From: Flavobacteriales bacterium
GTDB lineage: Bacteria > Bacteroidota > Bacteroidia > Flavobacteriales_D > Crocinitomicaceae
Direction: 5' to 3'
Length of the DNA: 33,800 bases
Assembly: GCA_947476955.1 (NCBI GenBank)
Contig: CANJSS010000016.1
Span: 1-33,800, forward strand
Shown: piece by piece, positions 5,525 to 18,956 of the stretch
How the letters are laid out: each line of letters opens with the position of its first letter
Numbering within the stretch: position 1 is the first letter of the stretch
The notes under the pieces: generated by a model
Database searches by the model: none
The model's input: only the letters and a program-made list of their open reading frames with translations
What the model was told of the DNA's origin: nothing
Translations under genes and position numbers: made by a program

Positions 5525-5954
5525 TGTTGCTTTAATTAAAAAGGTTTCGTTTTGATATACTTATTCATAGATGCGAACTTATTATTTTTCAAAAGCTTCA
5601 ATGAACTATTTCAACCAACAACCTTTTATTTTAAAGAATTTTCAGTTAATCTTAATTTAAATAATTTTTGTGTTTTAATTTTAGGATGGAATTTTCCCAA
5701 ACTAAACATATTGTCTTTGGAATGGATCAATACCTAAGAGTAATCGTAATTTCATTATGAATTCACTTTTTGAAATCCATGTATTAAAATTGAGAAATAT
5801 TCTCAAAATGGGAATAATATTCCATTTACGAGAATATTATACCTATGCTAAAATATTAATAAATTGTATTTCAGTCAGTTAGTTTTTTGGCATAATTATT
5901 ACCCTATCTGAAACGATTATCGTAGAGTGGTTTCAAAATAATCAGGTTAGGTAA

Positions 5955-5984
5955 AAAAAAGGAGTAGCATGCTACTCCTTTTTT
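5955..5984. terminator. Perfect 30-nt palindromic terminator downstream of clpB
   Basis: AAAAAAGGAGTAGCATGCTACTCCTTTTTT followed by further T-rich sequence. Confidence 0.85.
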
Positions 5985-6046
5985 GTTTTTATAATTTATA
6001 TGTCTGTTTTTTTTCTTTAGATAAAAATATATTGTATTTTAAATTA

Positions 6047-16253: not shown

Positions 16254-16325
16254 GGCCCATTCGTCTAGTGGTTAGGACGCCAGGTTTTCATCCTGGTAAC
16301 AGGAGTTCGATTCTCCTATGGGCTA
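16254..16325 (+). tRNA. tRNA-Glu (anticodon TTC)
   Basis: GGCCCATTCGTCTAGTGGTTAGGACGCCAGGTTTTCATCCTGGTAACAGGAGTTCGATTCTCCTATGGGCTA; anticodon stem CCAGG/CCTGG with loop TTTTCAT; T-arm AGGAG-TTCGATT-CTCCT. Confidence 0.97.
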
Positions 16326-16350
16326 CAAAGTACCAAATTTTAATTAATTT

Positions 16351-16422
16351 GGCCCATTCGTCTAGTGGTTAGGACGCCAGGTTTTCATCCTGGTAACAGG
16401 AGTTCGATTCTCCTATGGGCTA
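16351..16422 (+). tRNA. tRNA-Glu (anticodon TTC), identical second copy
   Basis: 72-nt sequence identical to 16254-16325, 97-nt offset. Confidence 0.97.
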
Positions 16423-16462
16423 CTAGGCAATTTTAAAAATTTTTTTAACAAAACAAAACAAA

Positions 16463-18706: not shown

Positions 18707-18808
18707 TCAGTTTTGTAAAAGGGTATCTATTAAAACGTCGAAAGGAGCAAAACAGGCGTTTCGCTCCTTTCAAACCTAACCTAACCTACCTTTTACAACT
18801 AAACCTGA
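18707..18808 (-). ncRNA. Candidate structured small RNA with 6S-RNA-like topology
   Basis: Outer inverted repeat TCAG-TTT..TTGTAAAAGG (18707-18722) / CCTTTTACAA..AAACCTGA (18789-18808) encloses large unpaired strands and an inner hairpin GAAAGGAGC-A-AAAC-aggc-GTTT-C-GCTCCTTTC (18740-18771). Minus-strand promoter-like TAATTTTG (plus 18811-18818) with CTTG 20 nt upstream (plus 18839-18842). Confidence 0.45.
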
Positions 18809-18956
18809 AACAAAATTACAAATTTAGTTTTATAGCTACAAGTTATTTTTAGTTTTTTTTTAATGTTATTTCATTTTTTTTTATGTTTTTCAAATTCTTT
18901 GGCTAAATCAAAATGACTATTACAGTCTTTCCTTATATTTGACAAAAAATAAAAAC

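Follow-up and report, generated by a model that had tools for sequence, protein, structure and literature searches.

A predicted small RNA gene with an invariant leader, located between a porin gene and fabG and recurrent in one family of Bacteroidia

Introduction

What is encoded in the gap between the porin gene and fabG in the genome of this Flavobacteriales bacterium? The window, which is the whole stretch of 33,800 nucleotides that was analysed, has no open reading frame covering this gap, in agreement with the original prediction for this DNA. That prediction had proposed a 6S-like regulatory RNA on the minus strand, in which a closing stem surrounds a large central bubble and an apical hairpin and which would imitate an open promoter. 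To our knowledge, sRNA regulation in Bacteroidota outside Bacteroides has been little mapped, and a literature search found no published account of this RNA. Comparison with related genomes indicates that the window most likely encodes an uncatalogued regulatory RNA of about 70 nt which recurs in one family of Bacteroidia.

Results

The structures which had been named in the gap were all found by sequence inspection where they had been placed: the arms of the outer repeat (TCAGTTTTGTAAAAGG at 18707-18722 and CCTTTTACAACTAAACCTGA at 18789-18808), the inner hairpin (GAAAGGAGC...GCTCCTTTC) and the promoter boxes. When RNA folding of the interval was compared to that of shuffled sequences, the signal was stronger on the minus strand (z = -4.53) than on the plus strand (z = -2.97), and the minus-strand hairpin had the most base pairs among the terminator-like sites within 14-33.8 kb of the window. 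Homologues were gathered by BLASTN of the gap against 60 relatives, and the part which they share is a minus-strand unit. This unit holds a promoter, a leader and a terminator in the same fixed order in 52 copies. Comparative sequence thus bears out the proposal that the minus strand carries a gene for a regulatory RNA, the RNA itself being predicted.

The promoter position had also been called correctly. The -7 element TAATTTTG lies at 18818-18811 on the minus strand and a TTG (the -33 element) lies at 18841-18839, exactly 20 nt upstream. The -7 element follows TAnnTTTG, the housekeeping promoter of Bacteroidota, which has been described as the sigma-A -7 box of flavobacteria (PMC9723704). 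An exact TAnnTTTG was found 5-6 nt before the core of the leader in 34 of the 52 copies, where shuffling gave an expectation of 0.5, so that the promoter stands at the fixed distance from the RNA which is looked for in an intrinsically terminated sRNA. Among these 34 copies a spacing of 20 nt to the TTG was the commonest (16 cases). One genus (loci L064-L084) has a degenerate -7 box, exact in 5 of 21 loci and matching at ≥ 5 of six positions in 14 of 21.

Directly downstream of the promoter are 26 conserved nucleotides, GUUUAGUUGUAAAAGGUAGGUUAGGU, which would form an invariant single-stranded 5' leader, GTTTAGTTGTAAAAGGTAGGTTAGGT (18779-18804, minus strand), with three UAG motifs; this is the proposed pairing region. 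The 22-nt core of the leader (GTTTAGTTGTAAAAGGTAGGTT) was found in 51 of 241 genomes of the family, belonging to 10 of 24 genera, and was exact in 48 of the 52 copies, while the first 27 nt of the predicted RNA had a mean unpaired probability of 0.71, as would suit a conserved, unpaired seed-type region. Substitutions in the leader hit a UAG triplet in 1 of 5 cases, and UAG has disappeared from some of the divergent copies and from some siblings. The core is normally present once per genome, and a control with the reversed pattern gave 5 chance matches in the same genomes. A dispersed repeat or MITE was ruled out, as the source genome has only one copy of the core, and no plasmid match was found for the sRNA. 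One genome carries a second exact 22-nt core (G002:C85:336-414, locus L025), which has a poor -7 box and is followed by a terminator hairpin of unrelated sequence. In a search of the whole class, exact matches to the core were restricted to the same family; two near matches (L061 and L062) were set aside as they were found without the hairpin and promoter. Within the family the core is missing from large parts, including genus g43 (some 87 genomes).

The leader is followed, 0-12 nt after the 22-nt core, by a hairpin (18738-18773 in the window, minus strand) whose sequence is fully different between genera with the pairing kept, the leader core meanwhile staying invariant. Across 35 relatives all 14 of its 14 pairs change on both sides, and 94.6% of hairpin cells were paired, compared to 79.4% in shuffles and 48-57% in slid controls; none of 500 shuffles was as good. 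Hairpin energies over the copies ranged from -13.6 to -23.4 kcal/mol and a T-run comes next: over 52 copies, the 9 nt which follow the hairpin hold 5.8 T on average. A terminal hairpin with compensatory changes and a T-run after it are what an intrinsic terminator of an sRNA would show. Several other genera have a far longer T-run than the window, where it is short (TTTT at 18732-18735) and separated from the stem by CG; some read-through may therefore occur here. Taking the start from the -7 box and the end from the T-run, the predicted transcript occupies 18805-18731 on the minus strand and is about 75 nt long. Together, promoter, leader and terminator point to an sRNA of about 62-75 nt across copies, with an unstructured 5' leader plus a terminator. 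A covariance model of this unit (R1) matched 18731-18818 on the minus strand with 90 bits, the window being a member of its training set. The predicted RNA has the layout of an sRNA which carries a 5' seed and ends at an intrinsic terminator.

The chance test divided the feature which had been read as a 6S-like RNA: the inner hairpin, with its covariation, and the promoter are kept in relatives and the outer stem is not. Taken alone, the window does allow a closing stem, two unpaired strands and an apical hairpin to be drawn, and there the outer stem is above chance (z = -2.66). Over the 52 homologous copies, however, the duplex which the leader would form with the nucleotides behind the hairpin had a mean z of -0.10, with the window the strongest of all; a weaker outer stem is retained in a near relative (G018, z = -1.04), and the stem is absent from the alignment of relatives. 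Its distal arm (18707-18722) is not conserved and, being located past the terminator, would be missing from a terminated transcript. Of the two strands in the supposed bubble and stem only one is conserved, and this strand is the invariant single-stranded 5' leader. The compensatory changes which had been sought in relatives do exist in the inner hairpin, although there they mark a terminator; the closing stem had no support in relatives. The Rfam 6S and 6S-Flavo covariance models had no match in the window, either at the gathering threshold or up to E = 10. The 6S-Flavo model also had no match in 60 relatives, but its control gave only a single match, below the cut-off, in 13 more distant genomes, so this negative is weak taken alone, and the structural test across copies is the stronger evidence against 6S. 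Like 6S-Flavo RNA (RF01685), the predicted RNA is small, non-coding, from Bacteroidota and contains a hairpin; it differs in that its conserved unit has no closing stem or bubble and no model match. A role as an open-promoter mimic to which RNA polymerase would bind is thus extremely improbable, and on comparative grounds we regard the 6S reading as already refuted.

Most copies, in many genera, are convergent to a porin gene (Porin_10, PF14121) and divergent from fabG. This common setting would suit a DNA or cis element of the locus, which might be an operator, a terminator used by both genes or an antisense RNA directed at the porin mRNA only. Neither neighbour was found, however, at several loci (e.g. 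L019, L020, L033, L035, L038-L040 and L054-L056), and copies placed elsewhere in several genera keep promoter, leader and terminator intact, which argues for a separate gene instead of a cis element of porin or fabG. Furthermore, the T-run is found on the minus-strand side only, and complementarity of the leader to the start regions of porin and fabG in the window was not above chance. We consider a cis element very unlikely.

No RNA was identified by Rfam in the window at the gathering threshold except two tRNAs elsewhere, and nothing convincing was found up to E = 10; the Rfam sRNA families also had no match at gathering level in 36 related loci, and none in the sibling loci that were scanned. 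Two tandem tRNA-Glu(TTC) genes lie upstream of rpsT (16254-16326 and 16351-16423, plus strand).

The porin-fabG sRNA seems to have sibling copies with UAG-rich leaders, some of them in tandem arrays. R1 found matches in 117 of 241 genomes of the family and 16 of 24 genera, the weaker of which represent other leader types in the same layout: type B (TGATTTAGGTGGTTAGGTTAGGTTGATTA), with three in tandem in L146 (G030); type C (TTTTCATAAGTAGTAGTTTAGGT), with a tandem array of at least four copies in L149 that precedes a lepA-like gene; and type D (AGTAGTAGTAGGTTAGGTTGATTAGT), on the same plan. Tandem arrays of siblings were seen in genus g41 (L149, L151, L147 and L148). The source genome has a type C copy (G000:C15:28591-28665, L273), a type D copy (G000:C39:9552-9645, L272) and a candidate within the window at 5917-5993 on the plus strand. 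This candidate has the leader AATCAGGTTAGGT and a strong terminator, AAAAAGGAGTAGCATGCTACTCCTTTTT, with a T-run, and scored 34.2 bits with R1 (window E-value 6e-6, the E-values of these models being rough). It faces the 3' end of clpB (8659-6047, minus strand), and on its other side lies the gene (5524-3149, minus strand) for a secreted protein that carries a Por_Secre_tail domain. A broader model (R2) gave it 51.2 bits, a score which is not independent because this copy sat in the R2 training set. R2 also found consistent members in a second family (f24, mainly in one genus) with leaders such as TTTAGTTAAGTTTAGTTAGGTTAGGTTAG; its hits of about 40 bits in other families were not counted, as they mostly resemble plain terminators, one of which scores 27 bits in the window. 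Seven leader types contain 28 UAG, compared to 7.3 expected from composition and 19.7 ± 1.8 from dinucleotide shuffling, an enrichment which is partly selected since the models favour motifs like UAGGUUAGGU. The sibling hairpins (A1 and A3) often have an apical loop of GCCC, GCCT, GCTA or ACCC closed by C-G, on stems which differ; such recurrent loops may simply be common among terminators of these genomes in general.

We also searched for mRNAs which the leader could pair with, and no conserved target was found among complements in the source genome, in scans of 30 genomes or among the genes of the window. The best complement in the source genome is a perfect 15 nt (L063, about 1501-1515; G000:C2:29141-29155) in the 5' UTR of a gene for a 120-aa Cys-rich protein, which has no Pfam match and is present in 230 of 241 genomes of the family. 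This 5' UTR was rejected as a target: only G018 retains the complement, with one mismatch, and the 28 other orthologues read do not have it. Scans for a seed plus start codon in 30 genomes gave no excess over reversed patterns (a crude control) and, self hits aside, no recurrent gene. Of 27 window genes tested, two had z values of about -2 to -2.6, no more than chance would give; porin and fabG were not these two.

Discussion

We think it probable that the minus strand holds an independent sRNA gene at 18805-18731, whose leader pairs in trans and whose terminator ends the RNA. RNA polymerase would start at TTG-N20-TAnnTTTG, make an RNA of about 75 nt and stop at the intrinsic terminator, steps for which there is comparative support. 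The invariant 26-nt leader would then be single-stranded and use short seeds to pair in trans with several mRNAs, and this seed pairing would change the translation or stability of those mRNAs. The terminator would guard the 3' end and be exchangeable, and an RRM-type protein may be a partner.

While trans pairing is ranked most likely, its main rival is that the UAG repeats (UAGGUUAGGU and relatives) dock a small RNA-binding protein, for example one with a single RRM, which the sRNA titrates or recruits. A pairing RNA whose targets drift would not usually be conserved completely over 26 nt, and this counts against pairing; along with the lack of a long complement in any genome, the conservation fits either a protein site or several targets bound through short seeds. 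The excess of UAG in the leader types and the failure to find a complementary target favour docking, as does the finding that the RRM protein RbpB binds single-stranded regions of the FopS sRNAs of Bacteroides (PMC11697453). On the other hand, the excess comes in part from how the types were found, the non-UAG linker is as invariant as the triplets in most copies, and in divergent copies UAG and linker positions both vary. Docking of a protein at the repeats appears rather unlikely as the main function, and we would give still less weight to a wider proposal, that of a superfamily of UAG-repeat sRNAs in at least two families of Bacteroidia, amplified in tandem and mainly titrating a UAG-recognising RRM protein.

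For the trans-pairing sRNA that we prefer, the nearest known system, by analogy of layout and not of leader sequence, is FopS/GibS of Bacteroides thetaiotaomicron. FopS has a single-stranded 5' seed and a Rho-independent terminator, is multicopy and has RbpB as partner (PMC11697453). The two systems share this seed and terminator, paralogous copies and a place in Bacteroidota. They differ in that the porin-fabG type is mostly present in one copy per genome, with targets and protein partner unproven, and in that neither the window nor the 36 loci had an Rfam sRNA match; FopS is reported as deposited in Rfam (PMC11697453), and the Rfam copy that was searched may not hold its model. Flavobacterium psychrophilum has TAnnTTTG promoters and trans-acting sRNAs, including Rfp18, which is described as strongly structured and as pairing through its third stem-loop (PMC9723704). 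The porin-fabG RNA shares with Rfp18 the promoter type and, as proposed, trans action of a flavobacterial sRNA, but has an unstructured leader and one hairpin; it is set apart by this description and not by sequence.

Since ten genera share an identical 22-nt string although the sequence around it is replaced, this string must be under very strong constraint, and the sRNA therefore probably touches something basic. In other bacteria, CsrB and RsmZ titrate CsrA through GGA motifs. If the superfamily proposal is true, the UAG-repeat RNAs would be the Bacteroidota counterpart of the CsrA/CsrB circuit, an analogy which lies in a short motif repeated in an RNA; here the motif is UAG instead of GGA, it is not placed in hairpin loops and no binding protein is known. 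The sibling types, the tandem arrays and the common UAG motif offer a testable way into RNA-based control in these bacteria and towards a partner RNA-binding protein.
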